Source: Opitutia bacterium (GTDB lineage Bacteria > Verrucomicrobiota > Verrucomicrobiia > Opitutales > UBA2995). From it: a DNA stretch of 35,097 nucleotides. Below the pieces are notes generated by a model. That model worked only from the letters and a program-made list of their open reading frames with translations, made no database searches and was not told the origin of the DNA. The translations under genes were made by a program, and so were the position numbers. The stretch is from the NCBI GenBank assembly GCA_014529615.1, contig JAABVD010000009.1, positions 1 through 35,097 of the forward strand, given 5' to 3'. This document shows, piece after piece, positions 75-34,265 of this stretch; positions within the stretch are counted from its first letter, which is position 1, and each line of letters starts with the position of its first letter.

Positions 75-122
75 GATCCTGACAGGGCTTCTGTCGCATT
101 CGCTTGGCAGGGAAAATGCGGG

Positions 123-875
123 TTAGAAGGACACGAATTTGCCCAATTCCTCGGGATCGTGGGTGACCAGCAAGTAGTGTCGGTCCTCCTCCGTCCAATA
201 TGCGGTTGTGGCGTAGGCGGTTTGCTCCAGAACGGGTTTTTCCCTGTGGGGAAGTTCGGGAAAATCCCCGGTATCGACCACGAAAATGTGAGACTCGCTG
301 TTTTTCCCAAAACAGATGACTCCCACCGGTTTACCCTGATATTCAAGGGTCATGCAACCCTTGGCCGGCATTTGGTCCATTCGGTCGGGAAGGTTGATTG
401 GCGCGGGTATGTTCCGTTCCCCGAGATAGGATACCAATTCGGTCCAGTCGCTCGATTTAGCGGCGAACCTGGATGGGCCCTTCAGGGCCTGGTTGGCGAA
501 TTCCTGCAGGACCGGGATGGTTACCGGACCGGGCTCGACCCAGATTCGGCCGGGAATGAGGACCAAGCCAAGGACCAGAGCCATGGAAGCCACTGCTCCC
601 CATACGGAGAACTGTTTCCACCAGGGAAATTCCACCACCTTGTTTTCTCTGACAATGACCTGGGAGAAGATGGTGTCGGCCAGGCCATGGGGCGGTTCTA
701 TTCGGGCCAGCTTGGCGGAAAAGGCTTCATCAAAGGCCTGTTCCATCCGAAACCATTTCTGTAGCCCGGCATCTTTACGCAGCAGGTCGAACGCTTCTTC
801 GAGGTCGGGGTGGGCGGAGGCGCCCTCTCCTTGCCGGAAGGCTTGCAGAATAAATTTTGCCTGATCCTTGGTCAT
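123..875 (-). CDS. putative membrane-anchored anti-sigma factor-like protein
   Basis: 250 aa ORF directly downstream of an ECF sigma gene; one central TM segment (WGAVASMALVLGLVLIPG) between a cytoplasmic N-terminus and a C-terminal domain. Confidence 0.6.
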   Translation of the reverse strand: MTKDQAKFILQAFRQGEGASAHPDLEEAFDLLRKDAGLQKWFRMEQAFDEAFSAKLARIEPPHGLADTIFSQVIVRENKVVEFPWWKQFSVWGAVASMALVLGLVLIPGRIWVEPGPVTIPVLQEFANQALKGPSRFAAKSSDWTELVSYLGERNIPAPINLPDRMDQMPAKGCMTLEYQGKPVGVICFGKNSESHIFVVDTGDFPELPHREKPVLEQTAYATTAYWTEEDRHYLLVTHDPEELGKFVSF

Positions 876-899
876 CTTGGGTTGAGGGTTGGTCAGGTC

Positions 900-1430
900 T
901 CAGGAAAGGGGGACGGTGGTTTTAGTGAGAATTTTTTTCAATTGGGCTTTACCCCTGGACAATCGCGACATGACGGTGCCGATGGGAATGTCGAGTGTCT
1001 TGGCGATTTCTTTGTAAGACAGGTCTTTCAGGTAAAACAAGGCCAGGGGAGCACGGAAGGTCTCGTCGATTTGGCCGAGAGCTTCCACCGCGCTTTTCGC
1101 ATCGAGCCGGTTTACAATCCCAGGTTCGATGGGGGGCAGTTCGTGTTGGATAACCTCGGCGCTGATATGGGGGAAACGGGATGATCTCCGGCGCGTTCCC
1201 AGAAATTCCCTGTAGAGAATGGTAAACAGCCAGGATTTCACCTTGGTCTTGTCCTTGAGAGTGGACCCCTTTTTTGCCCATATGAGGAAGACCTGCTGGG
1301 TGAGGTCGGATGCCTCCTCGACATTGTGGGCCAAGGAATAAGCGAATCGATAAAGGGGCTGGTAGTAGTTGTTCACCAGTTCTTGGAAGTCCAACTCCAG
1401 GTTACTCGGGATGTCAGTTGGAGAATTCAC
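900..1430 (-). CDS. ECF-family RNA polymerase sigma factor
   Basis: 176 aa with sigma-70 region 2 (YRFAYSLAHNVEEASDLTQQVFLIWAKKG) and region 4 (LSYKEIAKTLDIPIGTVMSRLSRGKAQL). Confidence 0.93.
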   Translation of the reverse strand: MNSPTDIPSNLELDFQELVNNYYQPLYRFAYSLAHNVEEASDLTQQVFLIWAKKGSTLKDKTKVKSWLFTILYREFLGTRRRSSRFPHISAEVIQHELPPIEPGIVNRLDAKSAVEALGQIDETFRAPLALFYLKDLSYKEIAKTLDIPIGTVMSRLSRGKAQLKKILTKTTVPLS

Positions 1431-1438
1431 CTTAAAAC

Positions 1439-1918
1439 TTATTCCTTATTTATTCTTTGTCCCCGGGCCGGGAGGAGGGGAAATGGCAGGCCCAAATGCC
1501 TCCACCAGAGAAATCCGGCCAACCCCAGCAGGGACAAGTCGCGGGCCACGTAATAGACATACCTTCCGGTGCTCTCGGCCGAGGCTTGGGAAAAACAACC
1601 GCAAATGATATTCAGGCCTCGCGCCCAAGCCTGAATAAGGGCGATGAGGAAGACGACGAGCAAGGCTGCGACCAGGAACAGGCTTCCCGGGTAGGCCTTC
1701 CGCAACAGGATTCCCAGCCCCGCCAGAACTTCCACCCAGGGAAGATATAGCGCCAGCCAATAGCTCCAGTGGTAGGGAATAATCTGGTAGGTTTCGGTAG
1801 CGGCAAGTAGAGAACCCGGATCCAGGATCTTCAGAATCCCCGCCACCAGAAAGACCCCTCCCAGCGCCATTCGGGCCAGGAACTCAATCCAATTCAACGT
1901 TCCCGGTAATCCAGCCAC
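1439..1918 (-). CDS. MauE/DoxX-like redox-associated membrane protein
   Basis: 159 aa, four hydrophobic segments, CGCF motif typical of the MauE-type family. Confidence 0.8.
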   Translation of the reverse strand: MAGLPGTLNWIEFLARMALGGVFLVAGILKILDPGSLLAATETYQIIPYHWSYWLALYLPWVEVLAGLGILLRKAYPGSLFLVAALLVVFLIALIQAWARGLNIICGCFSQASAESTGRYVYYVARDLSLLGLAGFLWWRHLGLPFPLLPARGQRINKE

Positions 1919-2328
1919 GTTTGCCAGCCTCCCTTCAGTACGTAAACGGAATCGATCCCGAGCGACTCTCTCAAACGAACGGCCACACTTTTACTGGCCG
2001 AGCAATTGCGGTTGTCGCAATAGACCACCAAGGTCGTGTCTCCCGACCATTGCAAAATGAAGGCTTCGAAGAGCCGGTCCCAATCATCTTCGTTCAATAA
2101 GATGGCGTCGCCTATGTGGTCCGCAGCATAAGCTTCTTCAGTTCTGGCATCGATCCAGGTGACCTCGGCCAGGGCCAGGGCATTTTCCAACAGGATTTCT
2201 CCCTCCTCCAGTTCCATGGGGTCTCTTGGGGGCAACTGTGGATGGAGCAACCATGTGGCTCCCATGCCGACCAGACTCAGGGCCAGAATTCCAATCCCCT
2301 GTAAACCGGCTTGCCGAAGAAGTTTCAA
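1894..2328 (-). CDS. rhodanese-like domain protein
   Basis: WIDARTEEAYAADHIGDAI...VVYCDNRNCSASKSVAVRL...VYVLKGGWQTW is a rhodanese fold signature; N-terminal TM. Confidence 0.88.
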   Translation of the reverse strand: MKLLRQAGLQGIGILALSLVGMGATWLLHPQLPPRDPMELEEGEILLENALALAEVTWIDARTEEAYAADHIGDAILLNEDDWDRLFEAFILQWSGDTTLVVYCDNRNCSASKSVAVRLRESLGIDSVYVLKGGWQTWLDYRER

Positions 2329-2339
2329 TGGACCGAAAG

Positions 2340-3248
2340 CTACCGAACGATAGCGTAGATTTTCTTGGTGGATTTCATCGGATTGGGAATGCTGGTCTTC
2401 ACCAGGAAGGTGCCTCGCATTATCCCTTCGATCTCCGAAACATCCGGAGGCCGGATGGTAAGGGAAAACTTTTTTCCTTTTTCCAAAACTTCAAGCTCGT
2501 GATCGAAGCGTTCATTGCTGGAGACGATTTCGAGTACATCCACCTCATACTCCAGATGGGATTCAATAATGGCGGTCCTGGCCTGAACCGGTTGTTCACT
2601 TGCCATGTTCCAAATAATCACCCCCGGGGTTGCCACCAGCGTTTTGGGAATCGTCACTTCCAGAGTCAAAACAATGTCGGGGTTGTCCGCCTGGGTGGTT
2701 TTGACCAGGATGGATTTCACCTGTTTCCCCTCCCGTGAACCATAATCGAAAGTGGCGGAGATCTCACCCGACTCCCCGGGCTCGAATACCCGTTGGTTGG
2801 GCACGGCGGTGGTGCATCCGCAACCGGAGCTGACTTCGAGGATTTCAACCGCTTCCCCCCCCTTGTTGGTAAAGGGAAACTCCACCTTGTATTCCGTTTC
2901 CTCCACCGTGGCCCGATGGCTGATCTTGTTCACCTCAAAGGATAGGGCGGCGCTCACCCCGATGGGAAGCGGGAGGCAGCCGAGGACAAGGGCTAGCCCG
3001 CATATCTTAAAAAATTCGTCGCGAGCGAACGGAGATCGAATGCTGGTGTGGGTTTCGCGCAGATGAGCGGGTGAAGCTGGGTCAGTCCGGCCGTAGCCCT
3101 TGGGCGAAGCCGGGTCGACACCCTGCAAAGTCGCGAATCCGACGAAGTCCGCACCAGTGCCGGCCTTGTCACGCCGTAATACATGAAGGCGGAGATTCCG
3201 GAGCGCAGTAGAAAATTTGTGAGATATGCGGGCTAGGATGGTCTTCAT
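2340..3248 (-). CDS. DUF1573-family exported protein carrying an in-frame 80-codon mobile-element insertion in its signal peptide
   Basis: C-terminal part has the DUF1573 pattern (FTNKGGEAVEILEVSSGCGCTTA...). Residues about 6-85 are encoded by repeat copy A (2993-3236). Confidence 0.88.
   Translation of the reverse strand: MKTILARISHKFSTALRNLRLHVLRRDKAGTGADFVGFATLQGVDPASPKGYGRTDPASPAHLRETHTSIRSPFARDEFFKICGLALVLGCLPLPIGVSAALSFEVNKISHRATVEETEYKVEFPFTNKGGEAVEILEVSSGCGCTTAVPNQRVFEPGESGEISATFDYGSREGKQVKSILVKTTQADNPDIVLTLEVTIPKTLVATPGVIIWNMASEQPVQARTAIIESHLEYEVDVLEIVSSNERFDHELEVLEKGKKFSLTIRPPDVSEIEGIMRGTFLVKTSIPNPMKSTKKIYAIVR
2993..3236 (-). mobile_element. palindromic ORF-bearing element, copy A (CTAG direct repeats at both ends; 240-bp insertion)
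   Basis: CTAG|CCCGCATATCT...(TIR)...AGATATGCGGG|CTAG; internal sequence closely matches copy C. Strand is the direction of the MSHK(F/Y)STALRN frame. Confidence 0.9.
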
Positions 3249-3273
3249 GATGCTTGTCGATTTTCAGTCCGGA

Positions 3274-5223
3274 TCAAAGAATTTGTCGAACCTTTTCCAC
3301 CACACCGGGATCTGCCAGGGTGGTCACGTTGCCCAGGGCGCGTCCCTCGGCAATGTCGCGCAGGAGGCGCCGCATGATTTTGCCGCTGCGGGTCTTGGGC
3401 AAATCGGCTGAAAAGATAATTTTTTCGGGCAGGGCGAATTTTCCTATTTTTTTGGCCACCAGATCGTTCAACTCCATTTTCAAGGCATCGTTCGGCTCAA
3501 TTCCCTCTTTGAGGGTGACGAAGGAAACCAGGCACTGCCCTTTGATTTCGTGTTTTACCCCGATCACGGCCGATTCCGCGGTGGCCGGATGCTCCACGTA
3601 AATGCTTTCCAACTCGGCCGTTCCTATCCTGTGGCCCGATACATTCACTACATCGTCTACGCGTCCCAGTACCCAGAAATAACCGTCCTGGTCCACCTTG
3701 GCCCCGTCTCCCGGAAAGTAATAATCACCGCCCCATTTGCACCAGTAGGTATCGAGGTATCTTTGCGCATCCCCATGAATGCCCCGGGTTATGGACGGCC
3801 AGGGCTTGCGTATGGTAAGCAGTCCTGCTTCGGCCGGCTCTGCCGCTTCCGTTACCACGGCCGCATCGACCCCGAAAAAGGGCAGGGTGGCGCTTCCCGG
3901 CTTGGTGGAGGTGACTCCGGGCAACGGGGTCAGCATGATGCCTCCGGTTTCGGTCTGCCACCAGGTGTCCACGATGGGACATTTCCCGGACCCGATGGTA
4001 TTGTGGTACCACATCCAGGCTTCCGGGTTAATGGGTTCCCCCACCGTTCCCAGCAGACGCAGGGAACTGAGGTCGTGGGCCGTTGGCCACTGGTCTCCCC
4101 ATTTCATGAAGGCCCGTATGGCGGTGGGAGCGGTATAGAAGATGGTGGCGCCGTATTTTTCCACAATCTGCCAGAACCTCCCGTTGTCCGGGAAATTGGG
4201 GGCGCCTTCGTACATGACACAAGTAGCGGCGTTGGCCAGGGGTCCGTAAACCAAATAGCTGTGCCCGGTAATCCACCCGATGTCCGCCGTGCAGAAGTAG
4301 ACATCCTCGGGCTTGAGATCAAAGACGTATTTGGCGGTCAAATAGGTGTAGACCATATAGCCGCCCTGAGTATGGATGATGCCTTTCGGCTTGCCCGTTG
4401 TGCCACTGGTGTAGAGCAGGAACAACCTGTCCTCGCTGTCGAGTTCCTCGGGCGGGCAGTTCATGGACTGATGCTCTACCACGGCGTGGTACCAATGATC
4501 GCGTCCCTCCCGCATGGTCGCGGGCATGGGCTGTTGCGCCGGTCGTTTGACCACCACCACGTTTTCCACGCAATCGACTCCCTCGATGGCTTGGTCGACT
4601 ATGTCCTTCAATCGAAGGATCTTTCCCCGGCGCCAACTGCCGTCCCCCGTAATAACCATCCGGGCCTGGGAATCCAGGATGCGGTCGCGAATGGAATCGG
4701 CCGAAAACCCGGCAAATATTACGGAGTGCACGGCGCCGATTCGGGCGCAGGCCAGGAGGCTGATGGGCAGTTCGGGGATCATGGGCAGGTAAATGGCGAT
4801 GCAATCCCCTTTCCTGATGCCCAGTTCCTTGAGCGCGTTGGCAAATTTGCTCACCTCACGGTGGAGGTCCCAATAGGTGAGCACGCGGCTGTCCCCTGGT
4901 TCACCTTCCCAAATCAAAGCCGCCTTGCTGCGGTTGGGGCCCTTCAAGTGGCGGTCCAGGCAGTTGTAGGAAAGATTGGTTGTGGCGCCGGTGAACCATT
5001 TGAAGAAGGGTTTTTCGGAGTCGTCCAACACCTTGTCCCAGGGCTTGTACCAATGCAGTTCCCGTGCCGCCGCCGCCCAGAATCCTTCCGGGTCGTCCAT
5101 GCTTTTGCGGTACATCTCCCGGTAGGCCCGCATACCGGAAATATGGGCCTTATCCCGAAATTCCCGGCTCGGAGGAAAGGTGCGGTTTTCGTGCAATACT
5201 ACCTTCATTTTCTGCGTATCCAT
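3274..5223 (-). CDS. acs: acetyl-CoA synthetase
   Basis: 649 aa; AMP-binding motif [20 protein letters not shown], and C-terminal [11 protein letters not shown] around the acetylatable Lys. Confidence 0.96.
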
Positions 5224-5343
5224 TTTCCTGCAGCCGATGTTAATCCCTGGAAAGGCTCAGACAGGGCATAAGATGGGTTAATACCCGAATCCTGGTCAAT
5301 ATGAGAATTGAGGGGATCCTCCCCCGCGGAGGGCCCGGGGGAA

Positions 5344-5419
<76 letters not shown>

Positions 5420-5533
5420 CCCGTTTTGAAGGATCAAAGTGTGCCATTATTCTGATTTGTAAAGCCAATTGCCCATGGAGAACCATCTCTGGAAGTATAT
5501 CCGGCGGGTGGCTCGGGCGTCCATCCCGTTTCA

Positions 5534-5992
5534 TTGGTTTTTCCCATTGATTCTCCGGTCGGCTTGCCCAAGGTTTCAGCCCTTATGAGTAAGGCGCTGG
5601 AAGAGGGTTGCGAGGTGATGCTCGACTTTGAAAAACTGGCAAAAGTGGCGTCCACCGCTGCCGCCGTGCTGCCAGCCGTAGCTCAGGATGTCGATTCAGG
5701 GGAGGTGCTATTTATCGGTTACGTCAACGAATTGGCTCTGCAAACAGCAATGCGAGAGCGGCTGGCCACCTTCTGGAGCACTTCACGCGACGAATTGTGG
5801 ATCAAGGGTAAGACTTCAGGGGATTATCTGGAGTTGGTGGATGTGCGGGTAAACTGCGAGCAGAATTCTCTCCTCTACCGCGTGCGCTCGAAAGGAGCGG
5901 GGGCCTGCCATACCAAAGGGCCGGATGGAAAGGCGCGATCGGGTTGTTATTACCGTAACCTTCGGGCTGACGGAACCCTGGAATTCTCCTGA
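5534..5992 (+). CDS. hisI: phosphoribosyl-AMP cyclohydrolase
   Basis: GEVLFIGYVNELAL...TFWSTSRDELWIKGKTSGDYL...GAGACHTKGPDGKARSGCYYR. The true start may be an internal Met (MLDFEKL). Confidence 0.92.
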   Translation: MVFPIDSPVGLPKVSALMSKALEEGCEVMLDFEKLAKVASTAAAVLPAVAQDVDSGEVLFIGYVNELALQTAMRERLATFWSTSRDELWIKGKTSGDYLELVDVRVNCEQNSLLYRVRSKGAGACHTKGPDGKARSGCYYRNLRADGTLEFS

Positions 5993-6021
5993 ACCAATCC
6001 CATGCCCCTTTTGGCCCAGTG

Positions 6022-6037
6022 TGTCACAGGTGTGACA
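6022..6037. promoter_or_regulatory. TGTCACA-GG-TGTGACA inverted repeat upstream of groES (possible operator)
   Basis: Perfect 7-bp arms with a 2-bp spacer, about 180 bp upstream of the groES ATG. Confidence 0.35.
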
Positions 6038-6217
6038 GTTTGAGCCATTTATCAGCCTTCCATCGAGGTGGCTGGCCTGTAATATATTTGGCAACCTGTT
6101 GTAATGTAAATGGTTATGTGGTTTTTTCCACAGTGGCACCGGCATTGCTTCACTTGCTATCGCAAAAGTTTCAAATTTACTTCAACAAAAATCAATTCAA
6201 CCAAAATCAGTACGGAA

Positions 6218-6508
6218 ATGAGTCAGATCAAACCTCTTGGAAACCGTGTTCTCCTCAAGAGAATTGAGGAGGATGAACAAGTAAAAGGCGGGATCATTAT
6301 CCCCGACACCGCCAAGGAAAAACCACAGGAAGCCGAAGTGGTAGCGCTAGGCACCGGGAAAAAGGGTGAAGACGGAAGCGACCACGCATTTTCCGTAGCA
6401 GCCGGCGACCGGGTTCTCACCAGCAAATATGGCGGAACTGAAGTCAAGCTCGATGATATCGATTACATCCTCGTGGAGGAGGATGACATCCTCGCCATCG
6501 TCTCTTAA
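6218..6508 (+). CDS. groES: co-chaperonin GroES
   Basis: [47 protein letters not shown]...; start taken at the internal Met (ATG 6218). Confidence 0.96.
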
Positions 6509-6519
6509 CCAATCCATAA

Positions 6520-8175
<1,656 letters not shown>

Positions 8176-13778: not shown

Positions 13779-13828
13779 AGCGGGTCCGGGACAGGAAAAT
13801 TTTGGCTAAACAGATAGGCGTTGCCCAA

Positions 13829-13884
13829 ATGGGGTCAAATGTTGATTTTTTTGCTTAAGCAGAAAAATCAACATTTGACCCCAT
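13829..13884. repeat. 56-bp near-perfect palindrome (REP-like hairpin)
   Basis: ATGGGGTCAAATGTTGATTTTT-T-TGCTTAAGCA-G-AAAAATCAACATTTGACCCCAT; only one non-Watson-Crick (T/G) position. Confidence 0.9.
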
Positions 13885-13900
13885 CCCGGCAAATTTTCTT

Positions 13901-16165: not shown

Positions 16166-17038
16166 ATGAATTCTGGGACAGAAATAGACACTGTTGCGGT
16201 TAACCCGCTTACCCTGGAGGAGCGGGCTGATCTTGAAGAAAGTCTGAAGCGATGTAGTGAAGAAACTCGAAACGCCGTGTTTGAATTTCGGGAAACGGGT
16301 CGGGTTGGCCTTCTCCCCGGTATCGTCATCGGGTTGATCGAACGATTTTTGGAACCTGAGGTCCGTCCTCAATTGCGAAGCTCGGACGACTCGATTCGTC
16401 TGGTCGACGATTTGAGGATAGATTCTCTCACCATGATGGAGATCGTCGTCCTGGTGGAAGAGGCCCTGGACATATCGATCGATAACCAGGAGTTGCGCGA
16501 CCTGCGGACTTTGGACGATGTCAGTTGTTTTATCGATGCCAAGACGAAGGGGCTTCCCCTTCCCCAACGGGGGCGGCTATTCGGGATTGAAGCCATCGGC
16601 GCTGCCGTGCCGCACCGTCCCCCATTCCTCTTTTTGAATGAAGCGAGGGTGGAGAAGGACACCGCCATCGGCACTTACACCATTACCGGGGAGGAAGATT
16701 TCCTAGGCGGCCACTTTCCCGGTAATCCGATTATGCCGGCCAGCATCATGCTGGAGGCCCTGGGTCAGTTGGCCGTATTTCATTTGGTGACAACTCAGAA
16801 GAATGGAACGGGCTCGGTAGTCGATTCCAGCAAGGTTTTATTTACCTCGGTCGAGGCGGTCCGTTGCCAACGGATTTGCCTTCCGGGTGAGACCTTGACC
16901 CTCCGTATCAAACTCAAGCATATGCGCCATCCATTGGCCATGTTCGAGGGCAAGATAACGGTCAATGGAGAGAGTGCGGCCTGGGCCGAAGAAATCAGTT
17001 TGACGTTCGATTGGGTGGGTGTCCCGGGCGCTCACTGA
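16166..17038 (+). CDS. ACP domain fused to a FabZ/FabA-like 3-hydroxyacyl-ACP dehydratase
   Basis: N-terminal DDLRIDSLTMMEIVVLVEEALDISI (phosphopantetheine Ser) followed by PHRPPFLFLNEA...GGHFPGNPIMPASIMLEALGQLA (hot-dog dehydratase). Confidence 0.85.
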   Translation: MNSGTEIDTVAVNPLTLEERADLEESLKRCSEETRNAVFEFRETGRVGLLPGIVIGLIERFLEPEVRPQLRSSDDSIRLVDDLRIDSLTMMEIVVLVEEALDISIDNQELRDLRTLDDVSCFIDAKTKGLPLPQRGRLFGIEAIGAAVPHRPPFLFLNEARVEKDTAIGTYTITGEEDFLGGHFPGNPIMPASIMLEALGQLAVFHLVTTQKNGTGSVVDSSKVLFTSVEAVRCQRICLPGETLTLRIKLKHMRHPLAMFEGKITVNGESAAWAEEISLTFDWVGVPGAH

Positions 17039-17112
17039 TTTTGGAAAGGTCAAACAATATGATTGCTTGTCCCTTTGCCCCAAAAGGACAATAAAGCAAG
17101 TTTTGCCCCTAC

Positions 17113-18372
17113 ATGGCGCGCGTATTTATAACAGGCTTGGGTTATATTTGCAGCATCGGGAATGATCAGGAAACTGTGGTGCATAACCTCCGTAACCTGA
17201 AACATGGCATGGCCTTGTTTCCCCCGGTGAACGTTCCGGATTCTCCGGTCAGGGTGGTCGCCCCGGTCAGGGAATTCGAGGTGGATTCCCTGGACCAGGA
17301 GGATTGGACCTATCCCGCCCGCTACAAAATCCGTCGGCAAACCATTCGCAGTTTTTCCCCTCATGTCCTCTACGCCTATTGCTCGTTATTACAGGCCATT
17401 GAGAATGCCGAGCTCAAGGAGGTGGATATCTCCAATAAGGAAACGGGCATTTATACGGCTTCAGGCGGGTCCATTCGCTTTATCTACCACCACCTGCGGC
17501 GAATGGAAAAGCGGGGTGTCATGCGTTGCAATCCCCTAAACATCATTTCCTCCATCGCCGGGACCCTTTCCTTCAATCTCGTCTCTCATTTCAAGATCCA
17601 AGGGGCCTCCACGGGGTTTGCCTCAGCTTGCGCCTCTTCGGGGCATGCCATGGGTTTTGCCTACGACGAGATTCAACGGGGTCGGCAGAAGCGGATGTTC
17701 GTGGTGGGGGCTGAGGATTGTAACTTTGAAAGCGTGGTGCCGTTTTGCGGCATGCGGGCTTTGAGCCTTTCCCTGGTCCCGGACCGGGCCTCGCGGCCCT
17801 TTGACCAAACCAGGGACGGATTTGTTTCCTCGGGCGGAGCAGTTACCGTGGTGCTGGAATCGGAGGAAGAGGTGGAGCGCCGCGGTGTTCCCGTCTATGG
17901 TGAAATGGTGGGTTGGGGACAAGCTTCGGACGGCCACAACGTAGCCATATCGCATCCGGAGGGCCGCGGACTGGAATCGGCCATGTTGCGGGCCTTGGGG
18001 GATGCCGGCATCCAACCCGCTCAGGTTGAGTATATCAACGCTCATGCTCCTTCCACTCCCATCGGCGATCGTTCCGAGGTCCAGGCCATTCGCCGTGTCT
18101 TCAACCCGGGGGAAACCAGGCCCATGATCAGCAGCACCAAGGCCTTGACGGGTCATGGGCTTTCCCTTTCCAGTGTGTTGGAAGCGGCCCTTTGCCTGAG
18201 CGCTCAAAGACAAGGATTCGTGCCTGGGTCCGCCCATATCCAGCAGCTCATGTCGGAAGCAGAGGGTTTGAATATCATTCGCCAAACCGTGAACGCTACA
18301 CCCACCTATATCTTGAGTAACAGTAGTGGTTTTGGAGGCGCCAATACCTCACTTGTTTTCAGGCATGTCTGA
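17113..18372 (+). CDS. beta-ketoacyl-ACP synthase (FabF-like)
   Basis: Cys active site STGFASACASSGHAMG; NAHAPSTPIGD; STKALTGHGLSLSS. Confidence 0.9.
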   Translation: MARVFITGLGYICSIGNDQETVVHNLRNLKHGMALFPPVNVPDSPVRVVAPVREFEVDSLDQEDWTYPARYKIRRQTIRSFSPHVLYAYCSLLQAIENAELKEVDISNKETGIYTASGGSIRFIYHHLRRMEKRGVMRCNPLNIISSIAGTLSFNLVSHFKIQGASTGFASACASSGHAMGFAYDEIQRGRQKRMFVVGAEDCNFESVVPFCGMRALSLSLVPDRASRPFDQTRDGFVSSGGAVTVVLESEEEVERRGVPVYGEMVGWGQASDGHNVAISHPEGRGLESAMLRALGDAGIQPAQVEYINAHAPSTPIGDRSEVQAIRRVFNPGETRPMISSTKALTGHGLSLSSVLEAALCLSAQRQGFVPGSAHIQQLMSEAEGLNIIRQTVNATPTYILSNSSGFGGANTSLVFRHV

Positions 18373-19177
18373 ATTGAGCTCTCGCTACGCCCGGGCGTTG
18401 GTGACGGGGGCTCGTTCCGGGTTGGGGAAGGCCTTCGCCCTCAGGTTGATGGCGGAGGGGATCGAGGTGTGGGGATCTTCCAGAATGCCGGATGCTTTTG
18501 AGAACCTCCCGGGAATTAATCCCGTCCTGGTCGATTTGAACCGGGAGAAGGAGTTATCCAAGTGGTACCAAGACCTGGATAGACGGGCCGGTGGTTTCGA
18601 CCTCCTGGTCAACAATGCCGGATTTGGGGCCTTTGGGAAGTTTGGTGATTTCCGGGATGAGGATATCCAAAGCCAGTTGCGTGTTCTCCTGACCTCCCCC
18701 ATGCAGTTGGCCCTGGGAGCGATAAAGTGCATGAGGGCCCGGAAGCGGGGTTGCATCGTCAACATATCTTCGATGGCGGGAAGTTTGTGGATTCCATTTT
18801 TCAGCAGTTACAACGCGGGCAAAGCCGGATTATCCGCTTTTAGCCAGAGCCTGATGCTGGAGGCCCCCGCGACCCCCCCCTGGATCATCGATTTTTGCCC
18901 GGGAGATTTAGCGACTCCCTTCAATCGATCCACCGTGCGGCGGGGTGAGCCATCGGGAAGGTTGCAAAGGGTCTGGCGTCGGATTGAACAAAATACCGAA
19001 GCTGCCCTTCCTCCGCAACGGGCAGCAGAAGATCTGATGGGCGGGTTGAAGCGGTTTCGGCATTGCACCTTGCACAGTGGATCCTTCTTGCAAAGGATAA
19101 TGGCCCGATTGGGGGCGCGACTTGTCCCGACTGGATGCAAGCGCACGGCTCTCCGTCGCTACTTCGATCTCCATTGA
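18365..19177 (+). CDS. SDR-family oxidoreductase
   Basis: ALVTGARSGLGKAFALRLM, LVNNAGFGAFG, NISSMAGS...YNAGK; ATGTCTGA overlap with the preceding stop. Confidence 0.88.
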   Translation: MSELSSRYARALVTGARSGLGKAFALRLMAEGIEVWGSSRMPDAFENLPGINPVLVDLNREKELSKWYQDLDRRAGGFDLLVNNAGFGAFGKFGDFRDEDIQSQLRVLLTSPMQLALGAIKCMRARKRGCIVNISSMAGSLWIPFFSSYNAGKAGLSAFSQSLMLEAPATPPWIIDFCPGDLATPFNRSTVRRGEPSGRLQRVWRRIEQNTEAALPPQRAAEDLMGGLKRFRHCTLHSGSFLQRIMARLGARLVPTGCKRTALRRYFDLH

Positions 19178-19200
19178 AGGACAATCGTCAATTGAGGATT

Positions 19201-20352
19201 ATGGTATTGACCTCCGCCACGGGTGGGGGGCATGACGCCCGCGCCTCGGCCTTTGCCGCCTGGTGTCGCAAGCTCTACCGGGACGGGGTGGTCCTGAGAA
19301 TCGTTCGGCCCTTGGAAAGCTCCACCCGGATTACCCGTTTTGGCGTGGGACTCTACAATGTTATTCAGAAGTGGGCTCCCCTGTTACACCATCCCTATTG
19401 GTGGTTCGTGGAAGGGCTCGGTTATCTGCAGCGGAACAGGGTGAAATTGGGCAAACAATATTACGAATCACTCCTCAGGGAGTTTGCCCCGCACCTGATT
19501 TTGAGCGTGCATGATTTTCTCAATCGGGGTTATTTTCAAACCGCCAAATCCATTCTGGGCCACCGGGTGAGGTGCTCGACTTACTGTGGCGAATTTTCCG
19601 GTGGATTCGGCTACAGTAGAAATTGGGTGGAGCCAACCGTCGATTTATTCTTTTCCCGAACTTCCATGGCCCAGGACTATGCCGTGCAGATGGGAATCTC
19701 TCCTCAAAAGTGTCGCGTCCGGGGTCATCTCATGCACCCCAAGGTCTACGACCAGATTCTGGACGATGGGGCACGCCGGAATCTTCTGGTCGACCATCTC
19801 GGGCTATCCCCGGGCAAATTTACCCTCTTGCTGGCCGCAAGTGGGATGGGCGCCAACAACCACTTGAGGATTTTGCAAATCCTCAAGCGATACGCCAGTC
19901 GTGTGCAGGCAATTGCGGTATGTGGAAGAGATGGAAATACCGAGGAAAAAATTCTGCAATGGAAGGAGCGAAACCCCGGTTTTCGGGTCCATGTGGAAGG
20001 ATATTCCCAGCGCATGCATCACCTGATTCAGGTCAGCGATGCAGTGGTCGGTCGTGGAGCCACCACTTGTGCGGAGGCTTTGTTTTTTAAGGTTCCCGTC
20101 ATCTTCAACGGCATCGGCGGCCTGATGCCCCAGGAGCGGTTGACCTGCAACTATTTTTGCCGGGCCGGGGCCGCGGTTAGGATGTCCAGCCTCAAGGACC
20201 TCGATGGTCATCTGGGATTGTGGCTCACCCATGAATCTGCCTACGCCCGCCTGCGGGAACGTTGCCGGGAAATTGCCGTGGTGGAAGATCCGACCCTCCT
20301 GATCCGGGAGTTGCATGGCCTGGCCATAGAAGCGATAGAGGAAGGGCCATGA
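19201..20352 (+). CDS. MGDG-synthase/UgtP-like glycosyltransferase
   Basis: MVLTSATGGGHDARASAFAAW..., VVGRGATTCAEALFFKVPVIF; GAGG before ATG 19201. The true start could be slightly upstream. Confidence 0.75.
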   Translation: MVLTSATGGGHDARASAFAAWCRKLYRDGVVLRIVRPLESSTRITRFGVGLYNVIQKWAPLLHHPYWWFVEGLGYLQRNRVKLGKQYYESLLREFAPHLILSVHDFLNRGYFQTAKSILGHRVRCSTYCGEFSGGFGYSRNWVEPTVDLFFSRTSMAQDYAVQMGISPQKCRVRGHLMHPKVYDQILDDGARRNLLVDHLGLSPGKFTLLLAASGMGANNHLRILQILKRYASRVQAIAVCGRDGNTEEKILQWKERNPGFRVHVEGYSQRMHHLIQVSDAVVGRGATTCAEALFFKVPVIFNGIGGLMPQERLTCNYFCRAGAAVRMSSLKDLDGHLGLWLTHESAYARLRERCREIAVVEDPTLLIRELHGLAIEAIEEGP

Positions 20353-21593: not shown

Positions 21594-22636
21594 CCCTTGC
21601 CGGGCGCCACAGGCATTTATCGGGTCTGCAACGGGTTTCCGACCAGTTGAGAAGGGCCCTTCGGAAAAAGATTGGGGATGAGTTGGTCCCGGTGCGGTGG
21701 AGGGCACGGGGGCGAGGGTTTTGCCGCGGGGACACCCGTGCCCCGGTCACACTCACCCGCGAGGATCACTTCATCAGCCCCGAAGTCTTTTCTCCGGGAG
21801 AAAGGCCGGGGTTTTTCCATGGGTTGGAGGAAAGCGGCTGTTGCAGCGCGATCATATATCACGATGCCATTCCCCTGAAGTGGCCGGAAATAACGTGGCC
21901 CGAAAGTGTGGCCAGGCATCCATCCTATATGAAGGCGCTGGCGCGCTTTCATCACATTTTCGCGGTTTCCCAGAGCAGCGCCGGGGAATTGGAGATTTAT
22001 TTGGATTGGCTGGATATAGCAGCCTCTCCACCCATTTCAGTTTTGCCCTTGGGGGCTGATTTTGCCGATCTCTCTGCCAGGAACTGGAGGCATTCCCCGG
22101 GCAACCCCCCCCTCATCCTTTCCGTCGGCATTCTCGAACCCCGCAAAAACCAGAGCCAGGTACTGGCCCTGGCCAAGCGCCTCTGGGATGGAGGATTGGA
22201 ATTTGAACTCCATTTCTGTGGCCGGGTAAATCCCCATTTTGGCAAACCGGTGGCTGCGGAAATAAAGCGGGCCCAAAGGCTGGGCTATTCCGTTTTCCAC
22301 CACTCCCGCCAAAGTGATGAATTGCTTTTGAATTGTTATGCCAAAGCCCATTTCAGCGTTCTCAATTCCAAAGCCGAGGGATTTGGCCTGCCTTTGCTGG
22401 AATCCCTCTGGCTGGGAGTTCCCTGCCTTTGTTCCGACCTGCCCTCCCATGCGGCCATGGCGCGGAGGGGTGGATGCCGGATCGTATCAAGCGAGGAAGA
22501 GATGGAAGAATCCTGGATGACCTGGCTTTGCCAGGAAACCGAATTGGAAGCCGCAACCCGGGAAGCCAGGGAGAGGACGGTGCCCCTCTGGGCAGACACC
22601 GCGGAATCCGTTCTCAGGTGGATGCGAGAAAAATGA
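21572..22636 (+). CDS. glycosyltransferase family 1/4 protein
   Basis: SVGILEPRKNQSQVLALAKRL, EGFGLPLLESLWLGVPCLCSDLPSHAAM; overlaps the previous CDS. Confidence 0.88.
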   Translation: MPLYFDVTLAGRHRHLSGLQRVSDQLRRALRKKIGDELVPVRWRARGRGFCRGDTRAPVTLTREDHFISPEVFSPGERPGFFHGLEESGCCSAIIYHDAIPLKWPEITWPESVARHPSYMKALARFHHIFAVSQSSAGELEIYLDWLDIAASPPISVLPLGADFADLSARNWRHSPGNPPLILSVGILEPRKNQSQVLALAKRLWDGGLEFELHFCGRVNPHFGKPVAAEIKRAQRLGYSVFHHSRQSDELLLNCYAKAHFSVLNSKAEGFGLPLLESLWLGVPCLCSDLPSHAAMARRGGCRIVSSEEEMEESWMTWLCQETELEAATREARERTVPLWADTAESVLRWMREK

Positions 22637-23850
22637 GTGCTTTGCCTTGCCTGGTTTTTTCCAATTCCTTTCCCCCGGATCATGCGGGAGGGTACGAGCT
22701 TGGCGCCGGAAACCTGGTGGACGCCTTGCGGCGATTCTGCGGGTGGAAAATTCGGGTGTTTTCCTCCGTGCGCAAGCAAACACCGCCGGGTATTTTGAGT
22801 CCGCCGCTCACCGGTTTTTTCCCTGGCCGGCTGGGGCCGGCCTATCGGCGGCGCCTCGTCAAAAGGGAACTGGTTGCCCGACACGAAGGGATTTGCGCGG
22901 CCATCGACCGGGAAGCGGAACGGGCGGAGGTAATCCTCGTATTCAACCCGAGGCGGTTGATATACCCCCAATGGGTCCGCCTGCTCGATTCCCCCACCCC
23001 GGTGGTATTTTTTGTCTCGGATTTCTGGCCTCAGGATCCCCTTGGGGCTGACCTGTTTTATGCGGGTTTGGCCAAGAGAAGGCATTCCCTGCGCCCCCGG
23101 GACCCGGCATTGGACGTGATTTATAATCCTTTCCTGCAAGAGGAAGCCATCTTTTCCCGAGCCAAAGGTGTGATTTTCTGCAGCCGGTTTCTTCAACAAA
23201 CGCACCGCGAGACCTTCGACGGATTGGAACATCAGACGGTGATTCATTGGGGGACAAATCCGGAGCGTTTCCCGAAATCGGCCAAAGATGGTGAACACTT
23301 GAAAGTGTTTGGTTTTTGTGGCCGCGCCGTTCCGGAAAAGGGCCTGGATAGGGCTTTGCAGGCATTTTCCGAGCTGTTGCGGCGTGATGCGCGCTTGAAA
23401 CTGTTGGTTGCATCGGATCTGACCACTTCCCACGGCCGCCTCCTTCGGCGCCAAATTTCCCGAAACCGCAGGCTTGAACACTCGGTTGAACTTTTGGGAC
23501 AGGTGCCCCATGAGGAGATGCACGAGAAATTCTTTCGTCGCATAGGTTGGCTCATGTTTCCCAGTGTCTGGGAGGAGCCTTTCGCCTCGACCGTGGTGGA
23601 AGCCATGGCTTCGGGGGTGGTGGTCATCGGCTCCTTCACCGGCGGAACCCCCGAGATTTTGCATGAGGCTTGCGGTTATCCCTATGATCCAAGCGACTCC
23701 GCCGCTCTGTTGGAGGCTTGCCGAAAAGCATTAAACAGAGCCGACCACCATGGGATTTTGGCGGACCGGGCCCATCAACGGATTTTGGGGCAGTTTAATT
23801 TGCCGGTCATGGCCGAAAAATTGGACAAATTTGTCCGCGGCCTCCTTTAA
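22633..23850 (+). CDS. glycosyltransferase family 4 protein
   Basis: Start at ATG 22633 (ATGA overlap): MSALPCLVFSNSFPPDHAGGYELGAGNLV...FGFCGRAVPEKGLDRALQAF...VVEAMASGVVVIGSFTGGTPEIL. Stop TAA lies in the TTAA end of repeat copy B. Confidence 0.88.
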   Translation: MSALPCLVFSNSFPPDHAGGYELGAGNLVDALRRFCGWKIRVFSSVRKQTPPGILSPPLTGFFPGRLGPAYRRRLVKRELVARHEGICAAIDREAERAEVILVFNPRRLIYPQWVRLLDSPTPVVFFVSDFWPQDPLGADLFYAGLAKRRHSLRPRDPALDVIYNPFLQEEAIFSRAKGVIFCSRFLQQTHRETFDGLEHQTVIHWGTNPERFPKSAKDGEHLKVFGFCGRAVPEKGLDRALQAFSELLRRDARLKLLVASDLTTSHGRLLRRQISRNRRLEHSVELLGQVPHEEMHEKFFRRIGWLMFPSVWEEPFASTVVEAMASGVVVIGSFTGGTPEILHEACGYPYDPSDSAALLEACRKALNRADHHGILADRAHQRILGQFNLPVMAEKLDKFVRGLL

Positions 23851-23988
23851 CCCGCATGTCTCACAAATTTTCTACTGCGCTCCGGAATACCGGCGCTGAC
23901 GCGGACTTCGTTGGATTTGCGGCTTTGCACCGCGCCAGCACTCGGTCTCCATTCGCTCGCTACGAATTTTGTGAGACATGCGGGTTAA
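23847..23988 (+). mobile_element. palindromic ORF-bearing element, copy B (TTAA direct repeats; 138-bp insertion, internally deleted)
   Basis: TTAA|CCCGCATGTCTCACAAATTTTCTACTGCGCTCCGGAAT...ACGAATTTTGTGAGACATGCGGG|TTAA; inverted relative to A and C. Confidence 0.92.
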
Positions 23989-30782: not shown

Positions 30783-31023
30783 TTAGCCCGCGTGTCTCAC
30801 AAAATGCGTAGCGAACGAACGAAGATCGAGTGCTGGTGTGGGCTTCGCGCTGATGAGCGGATGAAGCTGTGCCTGTCCGGTCGTAGCCCTTGGGCGAAGC
30901 CGGATCGACACCTGCAAAGTCGGCCTGCAACTGTGCGAAGCACGGGCAGGCGAATCCAACGAAGTCCGCGCCAGTGCCGGAATTCCGGAGCGCAGTAGAA
31001 TATTTGTGAGACATGCGGGTTAG
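30783..31023 (-). mobile_element. palindromic ORF-bearing element, copy C (TTAG direct repeats; 237-bp insertion)
   Basis: TTAG|CCCGCGTGTCTCACAAAATGCGTAGCGAACGAAC...GCGCAGTAGAATATTTGTGAGACATGCGGG|TTAG; near-collinear with copy A. Confidence 0.93.
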
Positions 31024-32867
31024 AGGTCAATGTAGCGGGAAATGGATTTGAGGTTCCATTTTTCAGAATGTCCCTCCACTTCAACTTCCACCTCCGAGTC
31101 GGCTGATCGACCGATGAGTTGCTGGGCCAGGGGCGTCTTATAAGAGAGGATATTAGCCTGGGGATCGCTGTCCCATGCACCCAGGATATGGTAAGTGGAC
31201 GATTTCCCTGTGCGCCCTTCCACCACCACCACGGTGCATCCTATGCCCACCACGTCGGTGGGAGCTTGGGTGAAATCGGTCACTCTGGCCGTGGACAGTT
31301 CGCGCTCCAATAGGGTCTTGCGAGCCAATAGGGTGAATTGGTCCTGCCGCGCCATCTTGAATTCGGCGTTTTCGGTCAGGTCGCCGTGTTCCCGGGCCGC
31401 GGCAATGGCCAGCTTGTTTTCCGGGATCTTTTCCTTGACCAGAACATCGTACTCCTTCTTGCGGACATCGTAGCTATTTTGGGATACATATACGATGCTG
31501 TCCTCAGGGGGTTTCACCGAGCTGTCGACCAGGCTTTGCACGTTGGGGAAAAGTTTAATGATGCGGGCCAAAATCGATTTTTTGGTCAACTCCTCGAATC
31601 CCTGATTAATGAGGAGGGAGTTGGCCAGGTCCCTTGCCGTTTCGGGATCGGCTTCGGCCAGGAGGTCACCGATCAGTTCCCGGTCCTCCGATAAACGGTC
31701 AGCCAATGGCACCCGGCGGGTTCCGGAGGATTGCAGGGACTCGTAATCAATGGAAAAAAGAATGGCCACAAAGAGCCGTGGGTTGATCAGGTCGGCCAAA
31801 AGCTTGGAAAATTTGCGCGAGTTCCGGTTTTTTATGATCCATATCAGGACCGGGGCCTTGAGCTTCTGTTCAACCAACCAGCGTTCGAGCATTTCCTTTA
31901 TTTCCTGCAAGGATGCTTTTTCATACAGGAAATTGATGCTCTCATTGGTGAATTTTCCTTTGCTGCTTTTGAACAGATCCAGAACGGTCCCCGTCCAGGA
32001 ATCGGGTTGGTTCGATTCAATCAATTCCAGGAGCTTGGTCTGATAGGGGCCGGGCAATTCATTGGCCAAGGCATCCAGGGCGGGAGCTTCCTCCACCAAT
32101 TTTTCCGGCAGGGGTTCGATGTTGGTTTCCCGGCCCAGGAGGGTCAGAACCTCATCTCTGACCCAGGCGGCGTGGAGTTTTTCCAGCAGGTTCAACTGGT
32201 GAGTTTCCTCCAGGAACCGCGAAAAGTCCTCAATGAGTTCCGAAAGGTGCACCTTGACCGCCGAGTTTGTTCGAGCCGAGGCAACCAATTCCTCGACCAG
32301 TTTTAATTTTCGCGATGCGGAGTTGGTTTTAAAGTAGGCATCGAAAACTTCGTCCTCCCGGTTGACCGGTTCGTCGCGAATGAAATAGGGGTCGGTCCGA
32401 CGAACGGGCATGCCGATACGCGAGTCCTTGGCCACCTGTTTTTTCGCGGCCGTCCACCACCTTTTGGCCTTGGGCATACCCAAAAGGAGTTTTAGGATTT
32501 TGTTGATTTCCTGGTCGGACCCCTTCTGGTCGGGCAGATGGGCCAGGATTTCAAAGACGATATCCGTCCGTTTTTTGGCAATCATGTGCTTGACCGTATC
32601 CGGCTCCATCCTTTGGCGGGCCAGGATGTGATTATCCGGCAATACTTGCAAGGTATTGACACAAAATGCGGGATCCATGGGGTGTCCCTCTTTTTCCTCG
32701 AAGTTTATAATGAGCCGATTATCTTCAGCCCTATAAGCCTCGATTTGGCCAAAACCCCAACTGCGATGAATGCAGAAGCGGCCAGGCTGCATGGCAAGCA
32801 ATTTTTCCTTTGCATGCTTTAGCCCCGGGCTTTGTTGGATCAGCGCTTGAACCGCCTCTTCGTTCAT
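31020..32867 (-). CDS. greA: GreA/GreB-family transcription elongation factor with a long N-terminal extension
   Basis: C-terminal Gre coiled coil IAAAREHGDLTENAEFKMARQDQ plus FKBP-like domain; about 450 aa N-terminal extension. ORF could start at 32930; MNEEAVQAL at 32867 is more likely. Confidence 0.82.
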   Translation of the reverse strand: MNEEAVQALIQQSPGLKHAKEKLLAMQPGRFCIHRSWGFGQIEAYRAEDNRLIINFEEKEGHPMDPAFCVNTLQVLPDNHILARQRMEPDTVKHMIAKKRTDIVFEILAHLPDQKGSDQEINKILKLLLGMPKAKRWWTAAKKQVAKDSRIGMPVRRTDPYFIRDEPVNREDEVFDAYFKTNSASRKLKLVEELVASARTNSAVKVHLSELIEDFSRFLEETHQLNLLEKLHAAWVRDEVLTLLGRETNIEPLPEKLVEEAPALDALANELPGPYQTKLLELIESNQPDSWTGTVLDLFKSSKGKFTNESINFLYEKASLQEIKEMLERWLVEQKLKAPVLIWIIKNRNSRKFSKLLADLINPRLFVAILFSIDYESLQSSGTRRVPLADRLSEDRELIGDLLAEADPETARDLANSLLINQGFEELTKKSILARIIKLFPNVQSLVDSSVKPPEDSIVYVSQNSYDVRKKEYDVLVKEKIPENKLAIAAAREHGDLTENAEFKMARQDQFTLLARKTLLERELSTARVTDFTQAPTDVVGIGCTVVVVEGRTGKSSTYHILGAWDSDPQANILSYKTPLAQQLIGRSADSEVEVEVEGHSEKWNLKSISRYIDL

Positions 32868-32930
32868 AAATGAATGGATTTTAGGAGTATACCAGGATTT
32901 GAAAGCTATTGTGCGACACCCTTCCATCAA

Positions 32931-34232
32931 ATGTCAAAGTTAGATCATCATTCATCTTCCCGGTCTTGGCAGGTATCCGTTCAGGTCATTGAGCGCTTTC
33001 TCAAATCTTCCCCCAAACTCGATGAACTCCTCTCCGGGGGCGCACGGCATTTGCCCGAGGGGCAGGTGGCCCGGGTCCATTTCCTGTCCTATGGAGTGGT
33101 TCGCCATCTCGGGCGCTTGAAAGCGCTCATCGCCGAGGTGGCCCGACGTCCCCCCAAACGCATGTGTCAGGCCCTCCTGCTCGTAACCATCTGGGAATGG
33201 TTGCAGTCGGACGACATCTTAAAACCCAAGGTTGTGCACCATGCCGTAGAGCGTGCCAAAGCCCTTCTGGGCGAGCCGGAATCAGCCTTTGTCAACGCGG
33301 TATTGCGACAGTTGCCCAAAGCTGTGGCAAGGGAGCCGGATTCCCGGAAGTCCCTGCCGGCCCTGGCCCGGATTAACAGTCACCCGGAATGGCTCTTGCG
33401 CCGCTATGGACAGCGCTACGGGCAAAGGGCCACTGCCAAGTGGAGCCAATGGAATCAGCGCATACCCAAGATTTACTGTCACATTTTGGGGGATCCCACG
33501 GGGCTGCCGGAGGAATTAATTCCGACCGACTGGCCCGGTTTCTATCGGGTTTCGGGAAATTTGCGCAATGCCGCAGGAAATCTTCTCCGGGATGGAAGGG
33601 CTTATATTCAGGATCCCTCCACCCGGTTGGGACCATCCCTCATCTCTGGTGAGCGGGTCAGGAGCATCCTCGACCTGTGTGCGGCGCCGGGCGGAAAAAG
33701 CATTCACTTGTTGAAATGCCTGGAGGCTTCGGGTGGCCTGCTCGTTTCAGTGGACCTGCCCGGACCTCGCTTCGATCGAATGAAAATGAATCTGGCCCGC
33801 TACGGCGTGGAGGGCGTCCGAAAGCGGCAGATTCCGGCCGATGTCTTGCAATTGAAGGGGAAAGACCTCCCCCTGGAACAGTTTGATTGCGTTTATCTGG
33901 ATGTGCCCTGCTCCAATTCCGGAGTTTTTCAACGTCGGCCCGATGCCAAATACCGGATGGGGCAAGATTCCCTGACCCGACTCATCGCCCTACAGGAAAA
34001 GCTGATTGGGGCCGCGGCCCGATTTGTCGGTCCGGAAGGGCGGTTGATTTACAGCACCTGCAGTATCGATTTCGAGGAGAATGCTGGAGTGGTCTCCCGT
34101 TTCCTGGATCGGCATGGGGATCGATTCCGGGAAGTCGGCCGGATTATTTCCCTCCCCTGGGAAAGTGGGCACGATGGTTGCGGCGCCTTTGCCCTGCAGC
34201 GTCTTAACCCGCATGTATCACAAAATGCGTAG
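32931..34232 (+). CDS. rsmB: RsmB-like 16S rRNA m5C methyltransferase (NusB domain plus Nol1/Nop2/Sun domain)
   Basis: LDLCAAPGGKSIHLL, LDVPCSNSGVFQRRPDAKYRM, IYSTCSIDFEEN; last residues NPHVSQNA are encoded by repeat copy D. Confidence 0.87.
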   Translation: MSKLDHHSSSRSWQVSVQVIERFLKSSPKLDELLSGGARHLPEGQVARVHFLSYGVVRHLGRLKALIAEVARRPPKRMCQALLLVTIWEWLQSDDILKPKVVHHAVERAKALLGEPESAFVNAVLRQLPKAVAREPDSRKSLPALARINSHPEWLLRRYGQRYGQRATAKWSQWNQRIPKIYCHILGDPTGLPEELIPTDWPGFYRVSGNLRNAAGNLLRDGRAYIQDPSTRLGPSLISGERVRSILDLCAAPGGKSIHLLKCLEASGGLLVSVDLPGPRFDRMKMNLARYGVEGVRKRQIPADVLQLKGKDLPLEQFDCVYLDVPCSNSGVFQRRPDAKYRMGQDSLTRLIALQEKLIGAAARFVGPEGRLIYSTCSIDFEENAGVVSRFLDRHGDRFREVGRIISLPWESGHDGCGAFALQRLNPHVSQNA

Positions 34233-34265
34233 CGCAGTAGAAAATTTGTGAGACATGCGGGTTAA
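34204..34265 (-). mobile_element. palindromic element, copy D (TTAA direct repeats; minimal 58-bp derivative)
   Basis: TTAA|CCCGCATGTATCACAAAATGCGTAGCG fused to CAGTAGAAAATTTGTGAGACATGCGGG|TTAA; left and right ends joined with the interior missing. Confidence 0.92.

Follow-up and report, generated by a model that had tools for sequence, protein, structure and literature searches.

A MITE with IS1380-type ends inserted in frame into the leader of a DUF1573 gene of an Opitutia bacterium

The window analyzed here is a stretch of 35,097 nt from an Opitutia bacterium (GCA_014529615.1, contig JAABVD010000009.1; its genome is labelled G000). Near one end it carries a DUF1573 gene, with rhodanese-like, MauE/DoxX and sigma factor genes on its downstream side and an acetyl-CoA synthetase gene on its upstream side. 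A mobile palindromic element is inserted in frame into the Sec-type leader of the DUF1573 gene. The features of the locus and further copies of the same element family in the window are given in Table 1. The window also harbors a 36-nt inverted repeat with directly adjacent arms, 89% complementary (13821-13892), which is apparently unrelated to this family.

Table 1. Genes, parts of the inserted element and further family copies in the window
Feature	Coordinates	Strand	Basis or remark
Sigma-70 family (ECF-type) sigma factor	900..1430	-	PF04542, PF08281
MauE/DoxX gene, downstream of the DUF1573 gene	1439..1918	-	PF07291
Rhodanese-like gene, downstream of the DUF1573 gene	1894..2328	-	PF00581
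DUF1573 gene with 80-codon insert, 302 codons, ATG at 3248	2340..3248	-	Pfam PF07610, 2.8e-18
Original leader, remainder	2946..2996	-	LALVLGCLPLPIGVSAA
CTAG target-site copy, downstream side	2993..2996		sequence
Terminal inverted repeat, downstream side	2993..3016		carries TGTGAG to TTTAAG (C to F, E to K in frame)
MITE copy, 236 bp between target duplications	2997..3232	-	with one CTAG, 80 in-frame codons
Terminal inverted repeat including CTAG, start-codon side	3213..3236		
CTAG target-site copy, start-codon side	3233..3236		sequence; family-wide target is YTAR
Original leader, first four codons (MKTI)	3237..3248	-	
Predicted peptide from the insert of the DUF1573 fusion			AGTGADFVGFATLQGVDPASPK
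Acetyl-CoA synthetase, upstream of the DUF1573 gene	3274..5223	-	3' flank collinear in G001
Second family copy, TTAA repeats	23847..23988	+	at stop codon of gene 22333-23850
Third family copy, same subfamily	30783..31023	-	at stop codon of gene 31020-32930 (minus)
62-bp family copy	34204..34265		between two convergent genes

On the minus strand the DUF1573 ORF reads ATG AAG ACC ATC CTAG/CCCGCATATC...ATATGCGGG/CTAG CCC TTG, where the slashes mark the ends of the element. Codons 5 and 6 of the gene are split, and the element plus one CTAG adds 240 bp with no stop in the DUF1573 frame. This is, base for base, the structure described in the first-pass annotation, an element with CTAG on both sides that adds 80 codons and keeps the frame. 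The element ends in 24-nt inverted repeats that are 88% complementary. The combination of C to F and E to K produced by the altered downstream repeat is unique among the copies read.

That annotation had also held that excision of the element would leave a canonical leader. Such a leader really exists in G001, an uncultured Opitutales genome that represents a sister species of the same genus. Its DUF1573 orthologue starts with ATGAAGACCATCCTCACCCTTGTCCTC, which encodes MKTILTLVLGCLLLPLGASA, and constitutes the empty site, which favors insertion. Window positions 119-2992 align with 16472-19344 of G001, and 3235-3291 with 19347-19403, at 89-91% identity; collinearity continues across window positions 3235-6809, and the sole part missing from G001 is the element. 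A hydrophobic leader is likewise found at the start of DUF1573 in five genomes of a second genus of the family (G002-G006). Outside the insert the gene is 87% identical to that of G001 and carries no lesion. The dN/dS of the host gene between the two species is 0.23, which corresponds to purifying selection, a value that is uninformative on selection after a recent insertion.

The terminal inverted repeat (TIR) of the family has 307 matches in this genome and 89 in G001, against 0 for a reversed control pattern, and BLAST in other genera of the order detected essentially no family copies. Copies are flanked by 4-bp YTAR duplications (TTAA, CTAG, CTAA or TTAG). Most full-length copies measure 173 bp without the target; modules of about 24, 27 and 33 bp may be present in addition, and a class of shorter copies lies near 130 bp. 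The family, which spans roughly 60-270 bp and has no transposase, thus combines the properties of a MITE: short length, lack of a transposase, terminal inverted repeats, target duplication and high copy number. An Rfam search with the element gave no match at E<=1, so by that test it is not a catalogued structured RNA or intron, and a search for a promoter supplied by the element gave nothing convincing. A full-length relative was found in a Kiritimatiellae genome (L194:7688-7859, E 2.7e-12), which suggests transfer between phyla or mis-binning.

Most family copies lie outside genes or at stop codons. Many are placed exactly at the stop codon of a gene, with TAA or TAG within the YTAR target, and since the duplicated TAR restores the stop, the gene is left unharmed. 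Inside the 62-bp copy of the window lies the end of a 452-aa gene (32874-34232), and the convergent gene opposite stops at the TTAA of this copy. Placement at stop codons is also seen in other phyla (L194 and L200).

The terminal repeat CCCGCATRTCTCACAAA occurs in identical form beside IS1380 transposases in Spirochaetaceae (L198; NF033539, 3.8e-116) and in Dadabacteria (L195; 7.2e-76), so that these ends are common to IS1380 elements that bear a transposase. In G001 an IS1380 gene (L212) lies near a contig end, and the adjoining TIR-like end is alike at about 12 of 17 positions. The genome studied here yielded only a fragment of an IS1380 gene, and not an intact transposase of this type with matching ends. 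Because the inverted repeats and the 4-bp YTAR target match IS1380 ends in other phyla, we infer that an IS1380-type transposase is the best candidate for the mobilizer. IS5 also targets YTAR; an IS5-type origin was therefore considered, and was dropped given the IS1380 TIR matches. Compared with the insertion sequences of the IS1380 family, which are relatives of the piggyBac superfamily, the MITE has the same terminal repeat and a YTAR-type target, but is a short element without transposase. Its target duplication is 4 bp, whereas IS1247, of the IS1380 family, was reported with a 5-bp duplication (PMC3281130).

In-frame insertion recurs in other genes. Across the two species, the homology-supported in-frame loci comprise six in the sense direction of the element and one antisense. 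A second polymerase gene, of DnaE type, has a 43-codon in-frame insert inside its finger domain (L111:1739-1871). Both G001 and G002 have the precise empty site, and the sequence on either side of the insert is 93-95% identical to that of G001. At the N-terminus of YidD the insertion, with the frame kept, is common to both species (L154 and L142) and therefore predates their split; its target duplication is perfect in this genome and decayed in G001. The dN/dS of the element part of YidD is 1.05 and that of the rest is 0.37, so the element segment seems to be tolerated rather than conserved. Further in-frame insertions are found just after the leader of a PSCyt1/PSD1 protein, near the C-terminus of a GH39 protein, for which G001 and G002 have no orthologue, and in an AraC regulator. 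No clear orthologue of the latter was found in this genome, G002 or G004, which leaves its empty site unproven. The antisense case is a sulfatase of G001 with an element inside its signal peptide, and insert-free orthologues are present in this genome and in G002. A random insertion keeps a frame in 63 of 504 cases (0.125), and compared with this chance the loci found look filtered by selection; the excess is biased in part, as open frames were the reason for picking some of the loci. Some forty further regions of this genome contained 25 more full copies and no new homology-supported in-frame case. Several long ORFs that span copies (L133, L072) were rejected as in-frame cases, as Pfam gave no hit for them and they resemble antisense shadows.

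These data may be explained as follows. A non-autonomous IS1380-type MITE would have transposed into the DUF1573 leader, using the CTAG at codons 5-6 as its target and duplicating it. As the net addition of 240 bp is open in frame, ribosomes that start at the original ATG would read through the element, and the product would have an 80-residue, mostly polar N-terminal extension followed by an intact hydrophobic core and signal-peptidase region. Insertions that break genes would have been removed by selection, which would explain why copies in the interior of genes are nearly all in frame. The hydrophobic core ICGLALVLGCLPL is kept at residues 82-94, and the mean hydropathy of the 13 residues from residue 82 is 2.47 in the native gene versus 2.53 without the element. 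The first-pass annotation placed a polar insert ahead of the hydrophobic core. The insert is indeed mostly polar, but it ends in codons for ICGLA that restore the start of the core, which thereby survives. With this core and the signal-peptidase region intact, the DUF1573 fusion product is probably still membrane-targeted or exported. We consider it likely that the element is a MITE of this type which is read through in the DUF1573 leader, with a product that probably still reaches or crosses the membrane.

An n-region of 80 residues is far outside typical Sec leaders. In addition, the element RNA is predicted to fold into a strong hairpin immediately downstream of the start codon (-101.5 kcal/mol, z -6.3), which could lower translation. 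The gene may then be an allele that is null or blocks export but has not yet acquired stops, its protein either not made or cytoplasmic, and two substitutions in the right repeat, which suggest that the insertion is not brand new, would agree with this, as would the length and polarity of the n-region and the lack of in-frame ATG or GTG codons inside the insert. We find such an allele rather unlikely, since the frame was kept against the odds of random insertion, the hydrophobic core was kept as well, the remainder of the gene shows no lesion relative to G001, and the YidD insertion shared by both species shows that such fusions can survive speciation. Translation might also start inside the element, at TTG codon 41 or the rare CTG codon 63, the only internal starts present in frame, which would reduce the n-region to about 20-44 residues. 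This is improbable, for the predicted hairpin includes both codons, and G001 has conserved the native ATG.

A reversible switch, in which precise excision at the 4-bp target would return part of the population to the short leader, is suggested by the YTAR targets and by the related piggyBac superfamily, which excises seamlessly (PMC7351741). It is very improbable, because an intact transposase with matching ends was looked for in this genome and not found, and because there are two changes in the right repeat.

Of 44 long copies, 38 are open in the frame used in DUF1573 and 34 in another frame. In the former frame, third-position excess is absent (p 0.88) and the observed/expected NS/S ratio over the 44 long copies is 1.23, values that rule out family-wide coding selection on the element ORF. 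That the frame is open comes from the sequence itself and does not reflect selection on the peptide; given this lack of family-wide coding selection, the in-frame state of the DUF1573 copy is a matter of luck plus filtering. A coding palindromic element of the Rickettsia type, with the peptide itself selected across the family, would fit the many copies with an open frame and the common length steps of 24, 27 and 33 bp, all multiples of 3; however, the 44 copies were picked for length, which weakens this support, and the absent third-position excess, the NS/S ratio, the second open frame and the location of the majority of copies outside genes make it most improbable. Least credible of all is a chimera at 2993-3236 from assembly or binning: although the assembly is fragmented and several contigs end in or near copies of the family, the target duplication is intact, both flanks are collinear with G001 and the DUF1573 copy differs in sequence from all other copies.

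Read-through of the MITE in DUF1573 and other genes may have left traces in the inserts. Cys53 is lost in 5 of 7 in-frame copies compared with 19 of 145 other copies, and the CxxC pair is broken in 6 of 7 compared with 35 of 145 (one-sided p about 0.001-0.002 in each case, post hoc). For cysteine loss, p was 0.0001 in the first set and 0.001 after copies were added, and it fails correction for 57 codons. The loss of cysteines in in-frame copies hints that the fusions are expressed as protein, and the C to F and E to K changes before the core hint that the DUF1573 fusion is made. It is possible, though doubtful, that the fusions are expressed and their element segments reshaped by selection at the protein level, with the CxxC pair lost and the C to F and E to K changes yielding a working n/h-region. 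If true, a MITE would be a source of novel segments for proteins, leader extensions among them, in a phylum that is distant from Rickettsia.

Protein extension by mobile repeats is known mainly from Rickettsia, and the first-pass annotation had likened the element to Rickettsia palindromic elements (RPEs). The likeness is right in kind and extends to other genes: both are short palindromic mobile repeats found in frame in unrelated protein genes. However, the element is an IS1380-type MITE and not an RPE. It occurs in another phylum, has IS1380-type ends and a 4-bp YTAR duplication, and is free of family-wide coding constraint. While nearly half of the RPE copies of R. conorii lie in frame in ORFs (PMC10969869), the count here is about seven loci for the roughly 109 full-length copies that were read. 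The element thus acts like an RPE without being one, set apart by its ends and its target. The bacterial MITEs ERIC, BOX and QMITE1 have incidental ORFs able to fuse to host genes (PMC10969869). The likeness to our case lies in incidental ORF fusion, but the hosts differ; moreover, with empty sites the order of events is proven here.

A 2024 review of prokaryotic MITEs regarded RPE-like remodelling of proteins outside Rickettsia as only 'conceivable' (PMC10969869). The two related genomes described here provide empty-site cases in several proteins, two of them within signal peptides and one kept through speciation. Whether random inserts of mobile DNA are tolerated by proteins, exported with them and refined later is now directly testable. 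The IS1380-type ends tie this in-frame insertion behavior to a transposon superfamily with seamless excision.
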